A DNA stretch of 64,000 nt from the NCBI RefSeq assembly GCF_900114375.1, contig NZ_FOSV01000002.1:248001-312000 (forward strand), given 5' to 3'. The notes beneath the pieces are model-generated. The model ran no database searches. It saw nothing but the letters and a program-made list of their open reading frames with translations, and was not told the origin of the DNA. The DNA is from Methylorubrum salsuginis. Lineage in GTDB: Bacteria > Pseudomonadota > Alphaproteobacteria > Rhizobiales > Beijerinckiaceae. Every line of letters begins with the position of its first letter. The first letter of the stretch is position 1. The position numbers and the translations under genes are program-made. Positions 6,468-62,774 of the stretch are shown piece after piece.

Positions 6468-6570
6468 GAGAGCAGCGTCCCGAAAGCTGGTTTCCGGCTT
6501 TCGAAAAAAGACGATGCGGCACAATAACGGAGAGCATCGTCCCGGATCCGATATCCAGGACGATGCTCTA
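6468..6570 (+). repeat. TA-flanked 99-bp double-hairpin repeat, copy 1
   Basis: Core 6470-6568 begins GAGC and ends GCTC and folds as two successive hairpins. The first has a CCGAAAG/CTTTCG-type stem; the second runs AGAGCATCGTCC to GGACGATGCTCT around a GGATCCGATATCC centre. Related copies lie at 26262, 52264 and 61352 (inverted). The right flank TA (6569-6570) plus the terminal C forms CTA, which is the TAG stop of the ROK kinase on the minus strand. The left flank reads GA rather than TA. Confidence 0.9.
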
Positions 6571-7500
6571 CGATTCCGGACCCCACAGCCACGCCGCCCC
6601 GCGCACGCCCGAGGCATCGCCGTGGAGGCTCGCCCGAACCGGTGTGTCGAACGCGTCGGAGAAGACGTGCGGCGCGATTTTTTCCGGCAGCGCCGCCACG
6701 ACGCTCGCGATGCGCGAGAGCCCGCCGCCCAGCACGATCACGTCGGGATCGATGACATTGACCACGTGCGCGAGGCCGCGGGCGAGGCGGTCGAGGTAGC
6801 GCGCCATCGTGGCGGCGGCGCCCGGTTCTCCGGTCAGCGCGGCGGCGACGATCTGCTCGCCCGCCTGCCGCTCGCCGGTCTGCGAAAAATGGTCGGCGGC
6901 GAGGCCGGGGCCGGAGAGCCAGGTTTCGATGCAGCCGTGGCGGCCGCAATAGCAGGCCGGGCCGGGGCGCTCGTCGTCGCGGGGCCAGGGGAGGGGGTTG
7001 TGGCCCCACTCGCCCGCGATGGCATTGCGGCCGGTGAGCGCCTGTCCCCGCAGGGCGATGCCGGAGCCGACGCCGGTGCCGAGGATCACCGCCCAGACGA
7101 TCTCCTCGCCTGCGCCCGCCCCATCGACGGCCTCCGACACCGCGAGGCAGTTGGCGTCGTTCTCGACCCGCACCGGTCGCGCGAGCCGGGCCGCGAGGTC
7201 CTGCGCGAACGGCCTGCCGTTGAGCCAGACCGAGTTGGCGTTCTTGATCAGGCCGTTATGACGCGAGACGGCGCCGGGCATGCCGATGCCGACGCTCGCC
7301 GGGATATCCGCCCCTTGGGCACCGGCTTCGGATTCGAGGGCGGCGACGAGGCCGGCGATGGAATCGAGGGTGCCGGCATAGTCACCCCGCGGGGTCGGCA
7401 CGCGCGCTTCCGCTCGCGTCGTCCCGTCGGGCGCCAGCGCGATCCCGGCGATCTTGGTGCCGCCGAGATCGATCCCGATGCGAAGTGTTCGTTCGCTCAA
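6568..7500 (-). CDS. ROK family sugar kinase
   Basis: This 310-residue cytoplasmic kinase opens with the phosphate-binding motif DLGGTK (residues 11-16). The catalytic Asp115 is in ENDAN, and the ROK zinc site is complete: His168 in GEWGHNP with Cys183, Cys185 and Cys190 in CYCGRHGCIE. The family phosphorylates hexoses or amino sugars (fructokinase, glucokinase, N-acetylglucosamine kinase); I cannot say which here. It starts 4 bases after the stop of dctA on the same strand, so the two are likely cotranscribed. Its TAG stop is formed by the end of repeat copy 1. Confidence 0.88.
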   Translation of the reverse strand: MSERTLRIGIDLGGTKIAGIALAPDGTTRAEARVPTPRGDYAGTLDSIAGLVAALESEAGAQGADIPASVGIGMPGAVSRHNGLIKNANSVWLNGRPFAQDLAARLARPVRVENDANCLAVSEAVDGAGAGEEIVWAVILGTGVGSGIALRGQALTGRNAIAGEWGHNPLPWPRDDERPGPACYCGRHGCIETWLSGPGLAADHFSQTGERQAGEQIVAAALTGEPGAAATMARYLDRLARGLAHVVNVIDPDVIVLGGGLSRIASVVAALPEKIAPHVFSDAFDTPVRASLHGDASGVRGAAWLWGPES

Positions 7501-26261: not shown

Positions 26262-26365
26262 TAGAGCATCGGCCCGAAAGGTGCGGAGCGGCTTTCGGAA
26301 AAAAGCCGATGCGGCACAATAACGTAGAGCGTCGTCCTGGATCCGGTATCCAGGACGACGCTCTA
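26262..26365 (+). repeat. TA-flanked double-hairpin repeat, copy 2
   Basis: Core 26264-26363 (100 bp) is bounded by TA on both sides (26262-26263 and 26364-26365). Hairpin 1 has the stem GCATCGGC/GCCGATGC where other copies have GCATCGTC/GACGATGC, a compensated change. Hairpin 2 has GAGCGTCGTCC/GGACGACGCTC, again compensated. The right end makes the TAG stop of the minus-strand gene ending at 26363. Confidence 0.92.
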
Positions 26366-27148
26366 GCCCTGCGCCGCGCCGGCCTTGGCGGTCAGCTCGC
26401 GCAAGGTCCGGCCGGCGGCCTCGCCCTTCACCGGGAGCTTGCGGTCGCGCTCGAACCGCTCGATGGCGGCCCGGGTACCGGGACCCATCAGGCCGTCGTC
26501 CTTGAGCGGGCCGTAGCCGAGCTTGACCAGGGCGCGCTGGGCGCGGGCCACCGCCGGGTCGGGCTTGGCCGGATCGGACTTGGACGGGTCGATCTTGGTC
26601 GCATCGATCTTGGCTGGATCCAGCTTGGCCGCCATCTTCGCGGACGGCTTCGGCGTCACCGAGGCGGTGGTCTCCCCGGAGCGGATCATGTCGGCGATCG
26701 CGTCGCGGGGCGCCGGGGCGGGGGCTTCCGCGCGCACCTCCCGCGCCGGAACGGGGCGGGCCGCCAAGGGGGCGGGTTGCGGCTTCGCCTCGGCCAGCTT
26801 CGCGTCCGACGACTTCGTGTCTGAGGCCTTCGTGTCCGACGACTTGGCGGCGGTCGATCGGGACTCGACGGTCGGCAGGATCGGCGCCGGGTGGCGGCCG
26901 TCCTGGAAGCCGACGGCGTTGAGGCAGACATAGATCGCCGCGCCGCATCCCGCGAGCGTGCCGAGCGCACCGCCCGGATGGCGCAGGCACAGGGCCGCCG
27001 CCGCATGGGCGAAAGCCTTCGCGGAATCGGTGATGCCGTGCGCCGCCGCCTTCGGCTTCGCCCGGCGCGGGGCCGCCCGGCCGCCCCGCATGTCGCCCGG
27101 CACCACGATATCGCGCCGATCCCGTCCGGCGGGTGTCTCCCGCATCAC
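26363..27148 (-). CDS. Membrane-anchored peptidoglycan-binding domain protein
   Basis: The 261-residue protein has an N-terminal cytoplasmic basic region, one transmembrane segment around residues 60-80 (GALGTLAGCGAAIYVCLNAV), a long disordered linker, and a C-terminal PG_binding_1 domain (about residues 200-252) with VARAQRALVKLGYGPLKDDG and MGPGTRAAIERFERDRKLP. The linker contains degenerate tandem units of five residues: DPAKI, DATKI, DPSKS, DPAKP. It probably reaches across the periplasm to the wall. The TAG stop is supplied by repeat copy 2. Confidence 0.8.
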   Translation of the reverse strand: MMRETPAGRDRRDIVVPGDMRGGRAAPRRAKPKAAAHGITDSAKAFAHAAAALCLRHPGGALGTLAGCGAAIYVCLNAVGFQDGRHPAPILPTVESRSTAAKSSDTKASDTKSSDAKLAEAKPQPAPLAARPVPAREVRAEAPAPAPRDAIADMIRSGETTASVTPKPSAKMAAKLDPAKIDATKIDPSKSDPAKPDPAVARAQRALVKLGYGPLKDDGLMGPGTRAAIERFERDRKLPVKGEAAGRTLRELTAKAGAAQG

Positions 27149-50742: not shown

Positions 50743-52266
50743 GTGGGAACCCTTCGCCTGATCCTCGGCGACCAGCTTCACCGCCGCATCGCGACGCTCT
50801 CCGACCTCGATCCCGAGGCCGACATCGTCCTGATGGTCGAGGTCCGGGCGGAGGCGACCTATGTCCGCCATCACAAGCAGAAGATCGCCTTCCTGTTCGC
50901 GGCGATGCGCCACTTCGCCCAAGATCTCGAGGCGGAGGGCGTCGGCGTCGATTACGTCCGCCTCGACGATCCCGCCAATACCGGCTCGTTCACGGGCGAG
51001 CTGGAGCGGGCCTTCGACCGGCACAAGCCGGATCGCGTCGTCGTCACCGAGCCCGGCGAGTGGCGGGTCTGGGAGATGATGCAGGACTGGCGCGAAAGCC
51101 TGCCCCTGGAGATCCGCGAGGACAACCGCTTCCTCTGCTCGCGTGCCCGGTTCGAGGCCTGGGCGGAGGGGCGCAAGAGCCTGCGGATGGAGACGTTCTA
51201 CCGCGACATGCGCAAGCGCACCGGTCTGCTGATGGAGGGGGCCGAGCCCGAGGGCGGGCGCTGGAACTTTGATACGGAGAACCGCAAGGCTCTGCCGAAA
51301 TCGCTGGAGCCGCCGGAACGCCTCGCCTTCCCGCCGGACGCGATCACGCGAGAGGTGATCGAACTGGTCGAGGCCGAATTCGGCGCGCATTTCGGCCGGC
51401 TCGACGGTTTTGCCTGGCCCGTCACCCGCGCCGACGCGCTGACCGTCCTGGCCGGCTTCCTGAAAGAAGGGCTGCCGCGCTTCGGCGACTATCAGGACGC
51501 CATGCGTGACGGCGAGCCGTTCCTCTACCATTCGCTGATCTCGCCGATGCTCAACGCCGGCCTCCTCGACGCGGACGAGGTCTGCCGCGCCGCCGAGCGT
51601 GCCTATCGGGAGGGCGGGGTGCCGCTGAACTGCGCCGAGGGCTTCATCCGCCAGATCCTCGGTTGGCGCGAATACGTGCGCGGCCTCTACTGGGCGCGCA
51701 TGCCCGACTACGCCCGCACCAACGCGCTCTCGGCGAAACGCGACCTGCCGTGGTTCTACTGGTCGGGCGAGACCGAGATGGCCTGCCTGAAGGCCTGCGT
51801 CGGTCAGACCCGCGACCACGCCTACGCCCACCACATCCAGCGCCTGATGGTGCTCGGCAACTTCGCCCTGATCGCCGGGATCGCGCCGGCGCAGGTCGAG
51901 GAATGGTACCTCGTGGTCTATGCCGACGCCTACGAATGGGTCGAGCTGCCCAACGTCCACGGCATGGTGCTGTGGGCCGATGGCGGGGTGATGGGCTCGA
52001 AACCCTACGCGGCGTCCGGCGCCTATATCGACCGGATGTCGGATTACTGCCGGGGATGCGCCTACGACGTGAAGGCCAAGGCGGGGCCGACGGCGTGCCC
52101 GTTCAATTATCTCTACTGGAATTTTCTGATCGAGAACGCGGAGCGCCTGTCGGGCAATCCCCGGATGAGCATGCCCTACCGCACCCTGGAGCGGTTCGGA
52201 CCCAAGCGCCGGGCCGAGATCGCGGCGGATGCGGGCCGCTTCCTCGATTCGCTGGCGACGAGTTAG
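50743..52266 (+). CDS. phrB: FeS-cluster bacterial (6-4) photolyase/cryptochrome
   Basis: A 507-residue photolyase of the FeS-BCP class. The four [4Fe-4S] cysteines are Cys348 (ETEMACLKAC), Cys436 and Cys439 (DYCRGCAYD) and Cys452 (TACPF), with the same spacing as Agrobacterium PhrB. The N-terminal domain LRLILGDQLHRR binds the lumazine-type antenna, and FAD sits in the helical C-terminal domain (CVGQTRDHAYAHHIQRLMVLGNF). It repairs (6-4) photoproducts with light. It starts with GTG, 6 bases after the SDR gene. Its TAG stop is made by repeat copy 3. Confidence 0.93.
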   Translation: MGTLRLILGDQLHRRIATLSDLDPEADIVLMVEVRAEATYVRHHKQKIAFLFAAMRHFAQDLEAEGVGVDYVRLDDPANTGSFTGELERAFDRHKPDRVVVTEPGEWRVWEMMQDWRESLPLEIREDNRFLCSRARFEAWAEGRKSLRMETFYRDMRKRTGLLMEGAEPEGGRWNFDTENRKALPKSLEPPERLAFPPDAITREVIELVEAEFGAHFGRLDGFAWPVTRADALTVLAGFLKEGLPRFGDYQDAMRDGEPFLYHSLISPMLNAGLLDADEVCRAAERAYREGGVPLNCAEGFIRQILGWREYVRGLYWARMPDYARTNALSAKRDLPWFYWSGETEMACLKACVGQTRDHAYAHHIQRLMVLGNFALIAGIAPAQVEEWYLVVYADAYEWVELPNVHGMVLWADGGVMGSKPYAASGAYIDRMSDYCRGCAYDVKAKAGPTACPFNYLYWNFLIENAERLSGNPRMSMPYRTLERFGPKRRAEIAADAGRFLDSLATS

Positions 52267-52366
52267 AGCATCGTCCCGAAAGGTGGTTTCCGGCTTTCGG
52301 AAAAAGACGATGCGGCCCAATGACGGAGAGCGTCGTCGTGGATCCGATATCCAGGACGATGCTCTA
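52264..52366 (+). repeat. TA-flanked 99-bp double-hairpin repeat, copy 3
   Basis: Core 52266-52364 (99 bp) is flanked by TA at both ends. TA plus the first G gives the TAG stop of phrB (52264-52266). On the other strand, the opposite TA plus its G gives the TAG stop of the BcsS-like gene (52364-52366). It is the whole spacer between two convergent genes and probably their bidirectional terminator. Hairpin 1 is CCGAAAG...CTTTCGG; hairpin 2 surrounds GGATCCGATATCC. Confidence 0.93.
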
Positions 52367-53149
52367 CAGAGCGTTCCAGATCGCCAAGCCGAGATAGGGG
52401 CCGGGGCGGGCCCGCCCGTTCGCCTGCCCCTCGAACTGGCAGCCCGCCGACAGGCGGAATCGGTAGCCGCCGAGCGCGTAGTCCGTGGCGTGGAGCCCGA
52501 AACTCCATTTGCGGTAGCCGGTGCGGTCGAGGGAGAGGGCGGCCTCGGGGCCGATATAGGCGCCGAACAGGGCATAGCCCCAGGACAGGCGGCCCCAGGC
52601 GTCGCCCCGGCCCGAGCCGAGGATCACGGTCGCGGTGGCCAGCGTGGATTCGGTGGGCCGCGCCCAGACTTCGCCGTGCAGACGCAACCCGCTGCGCAGC
52701 GGCAGCAGCGCCGCGCCGCTCCCGGTCGTGAGCATCTCGACCGAGAGTTCGGGCCCGGCCAGGATCGTCACCACGCCCCAGGGCTGCACGAACTGGTAGC
52801 CGCCGAGTGCCGCGCCAAGCAGCGTGGTCCGCACCAGCACCGGCAGGCGGCCGCCCCCCTCCAGGCGCATCCCGCTGCCGCCGCTCACCAGCACGACCGG
52901 CCCATCGCGGTCGAACCGGTCGAAGGCGACCTTGGCGCCGCTGGTCGAGAAGGTCGAGGCGCCGGCCTCTAGGCTGCTGAACAGGATGCTGCGCAGGCCC
53001 GCATCCTCGGCGGCGGCCGGGCTCGCGGCTGCGGTCAGGGTCAGCGCCGACAGCCATCGGCGAACGAAGCCTCCGGCCACGCGCCGCGCCCTCGGCGGCG
53101 CGCCGTCTCCCCGCCCTGTCTCGGTGCCCCTCCCCATCGGTCGTCGCAT
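52364..53149 (-). CDS. bcsS: BcsS-like cellulose biosynthesis outer-membrane protein
   Basis: A 261-residue protein with a basic N-terminus, a signal peptide around residues 28-48 (FVRRWLSALTLTAAASPAAA) and a mature part of alternating beta strands such as LRLHGEVWARPTESTLATATVILG and WGRLSWGYALFGAYIGPEAA. These match the BcsS family, found in alphaproteobacteria and predicted as an outer-membrane barrel. No other bcs gene lies in the window. Its stop TAG is formed by repeat copy 3. The upstream 275 bases (53150-53424) are partly AT-rich and hold the divergent promoter region with exoD. Confidence 0.8.
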   Translation of the reverse strand: MRRPMGRGTETGRGDGAPPRARRVAGGFVRRWLSALTLTAAASPAAAEDAGLRSILFSSLEAGASTFSTSGAKVAFDRFDRDGPVVLVSGGSGMRLEGGGRLPVLVRTTLLGAALGGYQFVQPWGVVTILAGPELSVEMLTTGSGAALLPLRSGLRLHGEVWARPTESTLATATVILGSGRGDAWGRLSWGYALFGAYIGPEAALSLDRTGYRKWSFGLHATDYALGGYRFRLSAGCQFEGQANGRARPGPYLGLAIWNAL

Positions 53150-61180: not shown

Positions 61181-61208
61181 GGCCGAGGGTCGTCCTCCCG
61201 AGAATGAG

Positions 61209-61241
61209 AGCCGTGCCGGACCCGTCGGGTCGGGCACGGCT
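61209..61241 (+). terminator. Intrinsic terminator after the XRE gene
   Basis: AGCCGTGCCGGACCC and GGGTCGGGCACGGCT form a long stem around GTC, followed by TTCGTCTTTT, 28 bases after the stop. Confidence 0.8.
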
Positions 61242-61351
61242 TTCGTCTTTTGTGCTGGGTCGGCGTTTCGCGACGGGCCCGCCGCCACCTTCGGCTGAGG
61301 CCGCCGGGCCTCCATCCCGGCCTCCCTCCTGGCCCCCGGATGACGGCGGCT

Positions 61352-61454
61352 GAGAGGATCGTCCTGGATGCCGGATCCAGGACGATCCTCTCCGTCCCTG
61401 TGCCGCGTCGTCTGTTTCCGAAAACCGGAAACCACCTTTCGGGACGAGGCTCTA
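61352..61454 (-). repeat. TA-flanked 99-bp double-hairpin repeat, copy 4 (inverted)
   Basis: Core 61354-61452 (99 bp), read on the minus strand, begins GAGCCTCGTCCCGAAAGGTG and ends GGACGATCCTC. Hairpin 2 has GAGGATC/GATCCTC where other copies have GAGCATC/GATGCTC, a compensated C-G to G-C change. TA at 61453-61454 plus the first G makes the TAG stop of cobB. The far flank is GA. Confidence 0.9.
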
Positions 61455-62774
61455 GGCGCCGTCCGCCTCGGCGATGAGGTGGAAGAAGGTCCCGGTCACG
61501 CGCCCGCGGCGATGGCCGGCGAAGCCCAGCGGCGTGCCCTCCGCATCCGTCACCCGCGCCAGCGCGTTCGCCGCGTCGGGGGGCGGCGTCAGTTCGCTGG
61601 CGTAGTGGAATTCGTGGCCGACGAGCCGCGTGCCCGCCGCGCCGAGGAGCCCCGCCTCGACCACGCGCGCCACCCGGTAGCCGAGATGGAGCCGACGCTT
61701 CGCGTATGAGGTCGCCACCGGCAGCAGTCCCGCCATCGGGTGGGTGATCCCGTCGGCATCCTCCAGGCTTTCCCCGAGCACCATGTAGCCGCCGCACTCG
61801 CCGTGGACCGGCCGATCTTCCGCGAAACGCCGCAGGCCCTCGCGGAAACGGGATGCGGCGGCGAGGCGCCCGGCATGGAGTTCGGGATAGCCGCCGGGCA
61901 GCCAGCAGGCACCGCAGGACAGGTCGGGGGCTTCGTCGGCCAGGGGCGAGAACGGCACGATCTCGGCGCCCGCCGCGCGCCAGCCCGCCAGCATGTGCGG
62001 ATAGAGAAACGAGAAGGCGGCGTCCCGCGCCACCGCGACCCGCTGGGCCGGCGGGGAGGGGAGGGCGCCCGTGCCGGCTTCCGCGCGTCCGCCCGCGGCG
62101 GCCACGATCCCGTCGAGGTCGAGGGAGGCCTCCGCCAGGTCGGCGAGCCGGTCGAGCCGGGCTTCCAGATCGGCGGTCTCGCCGGCCTGGACGAGGCCGA
62201 GATGGCGCTCGGGCAGGACGAGCCCGGCCTCGCGGGGAAAGGCTCCGAGCACCTTCATGCCGATTCGACTGAGGCCCGCCTCGACGAGGCGGCGATGGCG
62301 CGGGCTCGCGACCTTGTTCAGCACCACGCCGGCCACGCGGATGCGGGGATCGTAGGCGGCGCAGCCCAGAGCGACCGCGGCGGCCGATTGCGCCGCCCCC
62401 GACACGTCGAGCACGAGCAGCACCGGCCAGCCGTAACGCGCGGCGATGTCGGCGTTGGCCCCCGTGCGGCCTTCGCCCGCCACGATCCCGTCATGCAGGC
62501 CCATCGAGCCTTCCGCGATCACCAGGGCGGCGTCCCGGGTGCTCAGCCCGGCGCAGGCGTCGAGCAGCGGGTCGGGCATCGCGAAGCTGTCGAGGTTGAG
62601 GCTCGGATGGCCCGTCGCGGCCTCGTGGAAGGCCGGATCGATGTAATCCGGCCCGCATTTCGCGCCGCGCACGACCATGCCCCGCCGCCGCAGCGCCCGC
62701 ATGAGCGCCAGCGTCACCGTGGTCTTGCCCGAGCCGGAGCGGGGCGCCGCGATGAGGAGGCCGGGGGCGCTCAC
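61452..62774 (-). CDS. cobB: Cobyrinate a,c-diamide synthase
   Basis: This 440-residue enzyme amidates the a and c side chains of the corrin ring with glutamine and ATP. The N-terminal dethiobiotin-synthetase-like domain has the P-loop [11 protein letters not shown] (residues 10-20) and [12 protein letters not shown]. The C-terminal class I glutamine amidotransferase domain has [11 protein letters not shown] and the nucleophile region [10 protein letters not shown]. The start is GTG at 62774, overlapping the cobM stop by GTGA; the longer frame is antisense overlap. Its TAG stop is made by repeat copy 4. In the aerobic pathway the substrate is hydrogenobyrinate. Confidence 0.93.

Follow-up and report, generated by a model that had tools for sequence, protein, structure and literature searches.

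A repeat of about 103 bp dispersed through the genome of Methylorubrum salsuginis borders host genes in such a way that the stop codon of the gene consists of the TA flanking the element and the element's own first base. Such flush copies recur across the genome, the C-termini of the genes compared are unchanged with a single exception, several empty sites are visible in a relative, and the copies carry TA/CTAG borders and GAGC ends. The reading preferred here, with a probability of about 85%, is that the element is a non-autonomous MITE of the IS630/Tc1-mariner type and that its share of flush copies comes from the availability of TA together with purging. The MITE would enter a TA, preferably within C-TA-G, and duplicate it; G (or A) is the first base of its core at each end, so that a TAG or TAA stop codon hit from either side would be rebuilt as TA plus G, i.e., TAG (or as TAA), and landing in a stop codon would leave a working stop. 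The C-terminus of the gene would be kept, and the last base of the former stop would end up on the outer side of the far TA; the near TA would survive because it is part of a stop codon, while the far TA decays. Insertions in coding DNA and promoters would be purged and, TA being scarce in a GC-rich genome, the share of stops in the TA that lie near gene stops (57% within 30 bp, 39% within 60 bp) would place about a third of the examined copies on a stop.

The element and its copies

Methylorubrum rhodinum is a close relative of the host, whose photolyase-related protein shares 93% identity with its counterpart in M. rhodinum DSM 2163 and 91% with the one in M. suomiense. In the window, which is the whole 64-kb stretch of DNA analysed, four copies of the repeat were read directly; it measures about 103 bp, has the ends TAGAGC...GCTCTA and contains two hairpins. 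The copies, and the hairpins of copy 3, lie as follows:

6468..6570, + strand, element copy 1; right-end TA intact, left end reads GA
26262..26365, + strand, element copy 2; TA at both ends
52264..52366, + strand, element copy 3; TA at both ends, supplies the TAG stop to two convergent genes
52268..52313, + strand, hairpin 1 of copy 3 (fold prediction)
52327..52365, + strand, hairpin 2 of copy 3 (fold prediction)
61352..61454, − strand, element copy 4; TA intact on the gene side, GA at the far end

The flanking TA attributed to the copies in the preliminary description is present on the gene side of all four, but copies 1 and 4 have GA at their far ends, followed by GAGC and by GAGG, respectively, and there the TA is not intact. 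A DNA search of the same genome returned at least 53 matching rows (40 of 189 candidates scored), and a covariance model (R1), built from an alignment of 36 copies with the ends TAGAGC...GCTCTA, returned at least 145 matches at E ≤ 0.01; as 150 of 4460 candidates were scored, the true copy number may exceed 145. The element is short, multi-copy and devoid of a transposase gene, as a MITE is.

A second subfamily of the same length and with the same ends is found at C34:157-261, C37:326218-326321 and C47:459249-459353 of this genome (TAGAGCGCATTCCGACGAAG... or close to it); its member on C37 adjoins a main-family match (326116-326219) with an overlap of 2 bases, as if either of the two had been inserted at the border TA of the other. 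Upstream of copy 4, a hairpin-like stretch at 61200-61280 (GAGCCGTGCC...GGCACGGCTTT) is missing from the aligned M. rhodinum and M. suomiense sequences; its match in Rfam, to mir-485, is sub-threshold.

Stop codons formed by the element's ends

Genes were called with a purpose-written codon-model caller, unbenchmarked and trained on 214 long ORFs. Among the 56 closed genes of the window the stops are TGA in 43, TAG in 7 and TAA in 6, and the TAG genes end at 6568, 26363, 35736, 40776, 52266, 52364 and 61452. The element accounts for five of these seven, so that these independent gene calls reproduce the initial count of five TAG stops, out of only seven, made of TA and the element's first G; they also bear out that the other end of copy 3 stops the BcsS-like gene. 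The names first given to the five genes concerned are each backed by a Pfam match:

6568..7500, − strand, ROK kinase gene (ROK, 4.7e-73); TAG on element end; TAG at the same residue in M. rhodinum
26363..27106, − strand, peptidoglycan-binding gene (PG_binding_1, 5.3e-10); TAG on element end; TGA in the same place in M. rhodinum
50743..52266, + strand, photolyase-related gene ("phrB"; DPRP, 4.2e-89); the insertion made its TAG at 52264-52266; M. rhodinum frame 10 codons longer (by eye)
52364..53080, − strand, BcsS gene (CBP_BcsS, 4.4e-30); TAG at 52364-52366 on element end; same C-terminal position in M. rhodinum (TGA)
61452..62774, − strand, CobB/CobQ-like gene (cobB; GATase_3, 2.2e-31); TAG on element end

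Beyond the window, the caller was run on 813 kb of stretches from the same genome, which yielded 760 genes. The sample consists of 92 copies for which the retrieved genome sequence included 300 bp or more of flank, drawn from 110 model matches that had been chosen from the 145 by dropping short or low-scoring ones; 15 regions with further copies were left out. Thirty of the 92 copies lie exactly on a gene stop, and they account for 31 stops formed by the element's TA and first base. For facing genes scoring at least 25, 28 gene ends fall at offset 0; another 19 lie within the 30 bp that precede the element and 7 in the 100 bp inside it, two of the latter at +1. The 31 flush stops comprise 28 TAG, 2 TAA and 1 TGA, which makes the original statement that insertion into a stop "always regenerates TAG" too strong. 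The dinucleotide on the near side is TA at 30 of these stops, and that on the far side at 9 of 31. With R1 and the same gene caller, two congeners (G005 and G009) gave 12 flush copies out of 30, which were the 30 best of 97 matches, and 21 out of 29 (G009). The observation that element ends serve as stop codons is thus confirmed as real and beyond chance.

Comparison with M. rhodinum

Whether a flush insertion preserves or shortens a gene can be read from relatives, and 27 of the 31 flush genes were compared with M. rhodinum (two had no match and two low-scoring ones were left out), sameness of the C-terminus being judged by eye on printed sequence tails. In 26 of the 27 the stop stands in the same position; the exception is phrB. 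At three of the four window sites, each compared with the syntenic M. rhodinum contig, the stops of the peptidoglycan-binding, BcsS and CobB-like genes are unmoved and all read TGA; the CobB/CobQ-like stop is in the same position in M. suomiense as well (TAG), in an alignment without a visible element. For 25 other flush genes, the ROK kinase among them, M. rhodinum was searched with 90-base pieces, and a homologue was found for 23; all 23 end at the same residue, with 12 TAG, 9 TGA and 2 TAA stops. Hence TGA stands in M. rhodinum at 12 of the 26 preserved stops, so that an ancestral TAA or TAG at those sites is presumed rather than seen.

A search of 22 M. rhodinum loci with R1 placed the element clearly at the stop in one (L261, 101.6 bits) and gave weak matches at the stops of two (L295, 29.2 bits; L292, 18.0 bits). 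All further matches, among them a strong match in L267, lie away from stops; most of the sites are therefore without a recognisable element in that species.

At phrB, joining the gene's own flanks adds 10 codons that align without a gap to M. rhodinum and run to its TAG (frame read by eye), so that the insertion has truncated this gene by 10 codons. The survival of the stop supposed in the preliminary description thus fails at phrB and holds in the other 26 genes compared, and the longer C-termini that were to be looked for in orthologues appear at phrB alone; stop codons do act as the safe landing sites that had been proposed. In M. rhodinum, phrB and the convergent BcsS gene share a tail-to-tail overlap, the phrB frame reading on across the end of BcsS; the insertion parts the two. 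The C-terminus of the photolyase-related protein differs among relatives (52260-52410 region).

The target site

For 11 sites that could be aligned, the M. rhodinum dinucleotide at the join is TA in 8, TG in 2 and CA in 1, in agreement with the insertion at TA first suggested. Both flanks were found in M. rhodinum for 18 of the 29 flush copies examined; the length difference amounts to exactly two bases (one TA) in five of them and comes within 3 bases of this in three more, and it takes other values in the remaining 10, one of which (C44) is the element itself. Both measures, TA at 8 of 11 empty sites and exactly two bases left in 5 of 18, show target-site duplication of TA. Single sites could be rebuilt by joining the flanks on one shared TA, supplied by hand (TA is left in 9 of the 31 far dinucleotides at flush stops): C29:51117 and C47:357280 then read ..TAGCCG, identical to the M. 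rhodinum stop, C51:31266 reads TAA as in M. rhodinum, the ROK site reads TAA against TAG in M. rhodinum, and the BcsS site reads TAA (frame read by eye).

The 62 non-flush copies, with 124 ends, reveal the wider context: a G stands next to the end dinucleotide on its outer side, giving C-TA-G, at 87 of 124, and the dinucleotide itself is TA in 48, with single-base changes of TA (GA, TG, CA, TC, TT) in 57 more. The base at the far end was considered as a readout of the ancestral stop. Of the 31 flush cases, 25 have a purine in this place, and the link of this base with the M. rhodinum stop is weak (P=0.09); as a purine is also found at 112 of 124 non-flush ends, this base is suggestive and does not discriminate.

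Availability of TA and alternative explanations

Random insertion into the 3' ends of coding sequences would truncate genes, and one frame in three would then read the border TAG as a stop; this is what phrB looks like, its joined flanks reading on to the M. rhodinum TAG. As a general cause, truncation is rejected and highly improbable: 26 of the 27 genes compared are not shortened, and it predicts about twice as many gene ends inside the element as at its border, against the 7 and 28 observed. A transposition machinery that actively seeks stop codons or transcript ends, beyond its preference for CTAG, has some of the counts in its favour. Stops hold 140 of the 1,885 noncoding TA in the stretches (7.4%, or 13.3% when weighted for CTAG), so that the 33% of copies found on stops is a marked excess (P=2e-12 and P=2e-6, respectively), and 21 of 29 copies are flush in G009. 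Few copies, in turn, lie between divergent genes, namely 5 of 90 compared with 462 of 1,559 TA (P=5e-8), and there is an enrichment between convergent genes, with 33 of 90 compared with 204 of 1,559; this contrast is inflated for flush copies as the intergenic pool omits the stops' own TA. Because of this rarity between divergent genes, the TA near gene 3' ends form a fairer pool. For genes scoring at least 25, the flush share within 30 bp of a stop is 28 of 47 (60%) against 57% of TA (P=0.42), within 60 bp 47% against 39% (P=0.14), within 100 bp 38% against 29% (P=0.06) and within 200 bp 33% against 21% (P=0.005); the CTAG-weighted expectations are 75%, 53%, 40% and 29%, leaving no excess in any of these windows (P from 0.99 to 0.25). 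The congeners give unweighted P values of 0.105 (G005) and 0.17 (G009) at 30 bp and of 0.02 and 0.04 at 60 bp. Some unweighted excess thus persists in the wider windows (60 bp in the congeners, 200 bp here) and would favour active seeking; within 30 bp none of the three genomes has a significant excess, and in M. salsuginis the weighted expectation of 75% is above the 60% observed, which leaves active seeking very unlikely. The enrichment of element ends at stops over random TA, proposed at the outset as a check, accordingly holds against noncoding TA at large and vanishes against the TA within 30 bp, so that availability and purifying selection largely suffice.

The hairpins offer another possible reason for the element to be kept or recruited at gene ends, where they might terminate transcription or shield the 3' ends of mRNAs. 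Copy 3 as a whole is predicted to adopt a very stable two-hairpin fold (−54.4 kcal/mol, z −6.79 against shuffled sequences), and the enrichment between convergent genes would fit such a role. Purging from promoters produces the same enrichment, however, and the flush share near 3' ends equals that of the available TA. The A/T run of copy 3 lies between the stem halves of hairpin 1, and the region around this copy (52100-52600), the only one scanned, contains no terminator-like site, i.e., a G+C-rich hairpin followed by a U run. Flush genes enter the hairpin-1 end and the hairpin-2 end equally often (15 and 16). The missing site at copy 3 and the lack of orientation bias make a strand-specific terminator role unlikely, contrary to the earlier suggestion that insertion gives the gene a terminator, and retention for the hairpins' sake is in general improbable.

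Most or all of the distribution is explained by the scarcity of TA in GC-rich DNA, the preference for CTAG and the purging of copies from genes and promoters, with perhaps a slight additional preference; we infer that purging rather than targeting shapes it. A bolder, rather doubtful extension would see in the CTAG preference and the G/A-initial inverted repeats an evolved "stop-codon homing", by which, in GC-rich bacteria, elements of the IS630 type find a genome-wide safe harbour in the TA of stops; if so, the stop would be re-supplied in either direction and host genes would be seeded with TAG stops and structured 3' ends. As a caution of wider use, an excess at stop codons needs to be weighed against the TA that gene ends really offer.

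Relation to IS630 and to known repeats

IS630-family loci (PF13358) of this and related genomes have inverted repeats in 8 of 25 cases when TA flanks are required; seven of the eight start with GAGC, and of the 14 ends of these seven, 12 are extended to CTAG by the base outside and two to TTAG. One IS of this kind in the M. salsuginis genome measures 1,052 bp from TA to TA, has the ends GAGCATCG / GAGCGTCG and lies in CTAG; the element shares GAGC[AG]TCG with it, a match of only about 8 bp per end. TA borders, the CTAG context and GAGC ends, all common to IS630-family ISs, point to an IS630-type MITE, which an IS630 transposase has probably moved. One such IS, at L258:1399-2450 (also in L241 and L249), has two overlapping minus-strand ORFs of 129 and 200 aa, perhaps a frameshift pair; in L258 its outer flank reads AACC before the TA on both sides, which would make the target the palindrome AACCTAGGTT.

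Tenzen and Ohtsubo are said to have found in 1991 that an IS630 composite transposon prefers the TA in 5'-CTAG-3'. IS870 is an Agrobacterium IS of the IS630 kind. Fournier, Paulus and Otten reportedly showed in 1993 that it depends on a CTAG target for the stop codon of its own ORF. IS870 and the element have in common that the target is CTAG and that a stop arises at the junction; judging by the title of that report, the ORF of IS870 takes its stop from the target, whereas here the host gene takes the junction stop from the element, so that the two are mirror images only.

Several other systems share single features with the element. As described in the accessible parts of the respective papers, ISY100, a member of the IS630 family, has TA as its almost exclusive target and duplicates it (PMC2170065); TA duplication is common to IS630/ISY100 and to the element, which differs in being about 103 bp long and without a transposase. 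The 107-bp RUP of pneumococcus is linked to IS630-Spn1 and to TA targets (PMC2229807), and enterobacterial RU elements show TA duplications, also at the 3' end of a gene (PMC2759123); the latter account tells of fusions that alter protein length and, in those parts, not of the stop preservation met here. Of 58 CDSs overlapped by BOX in Streptococcus pneumoniae, 36 have a stop codon that BOX encodes at their very 3' end, with no strong sign of truncation in the portion of the report available (PMC3049150); both repeats supply stops, but the repeat itself and the IS proposed to mobilise it differ. MITEPsy1 of Pseudomonas syringae is a 100-nt MITE that inserts at CTAG or YTAA (PMC3189936), and it is described there with a 4-nt duplication and other terminal repeats. 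That IS630-linked MITEs target TA (RUP, RU) and that repeats can supply stops (BOX) is therefore already known. In the accessible part of the Methylobacterium genome paper (PMC2680597) the repeat is not named, a literature search with words for the element's sequence had no paper titled on such a repeat among those listed, and among the nearest earlier reports found (BOX, RU, RUP, MITEPsy1 and IS870) the present combination was not met. This combination consists of a MITE family with at least a third of its examined copies in host stops, a C-terminus unchanged in 26 of 27 genes and an availability test that accounts for it. It provides a worked case of a transposon that sits flush with genes harmlessly even though their stop codon now belongs to the transposon, and the mechanism could extend to other TA-targeting MITEs.

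Comparison with known RNA families returned sub-threshold matches only, to BASRCI27, BASRCI408 and ctRNA_pGA1. BASRCI27, with the rhizobial RIME repeats a near system, aligns end to end with copies 2 and 3, which score 34.1 and 26.8 bits where the gathering score is 59.8; membership of the element in RIME1/BASRCI27 is, on these alignments, unproven. Among 30 BASRCI27 loci of the order (four skipped for their length), 9 have ends of the form TA[AG][AG]GC...GC[TC][TC]TA at a distance of 99-116 bp, and one of these nine is flush, as judged with the gene caller trained on M. salsuginis only. Matches like BASRCI27 at E ≤ 0.001 occur in 28 of 81 genomes of the order, with ten or more in 12, and pass the gathering score in 3 of 81; the behaviour of this "Brucella sRNA" family is that of a dispersed repeat.
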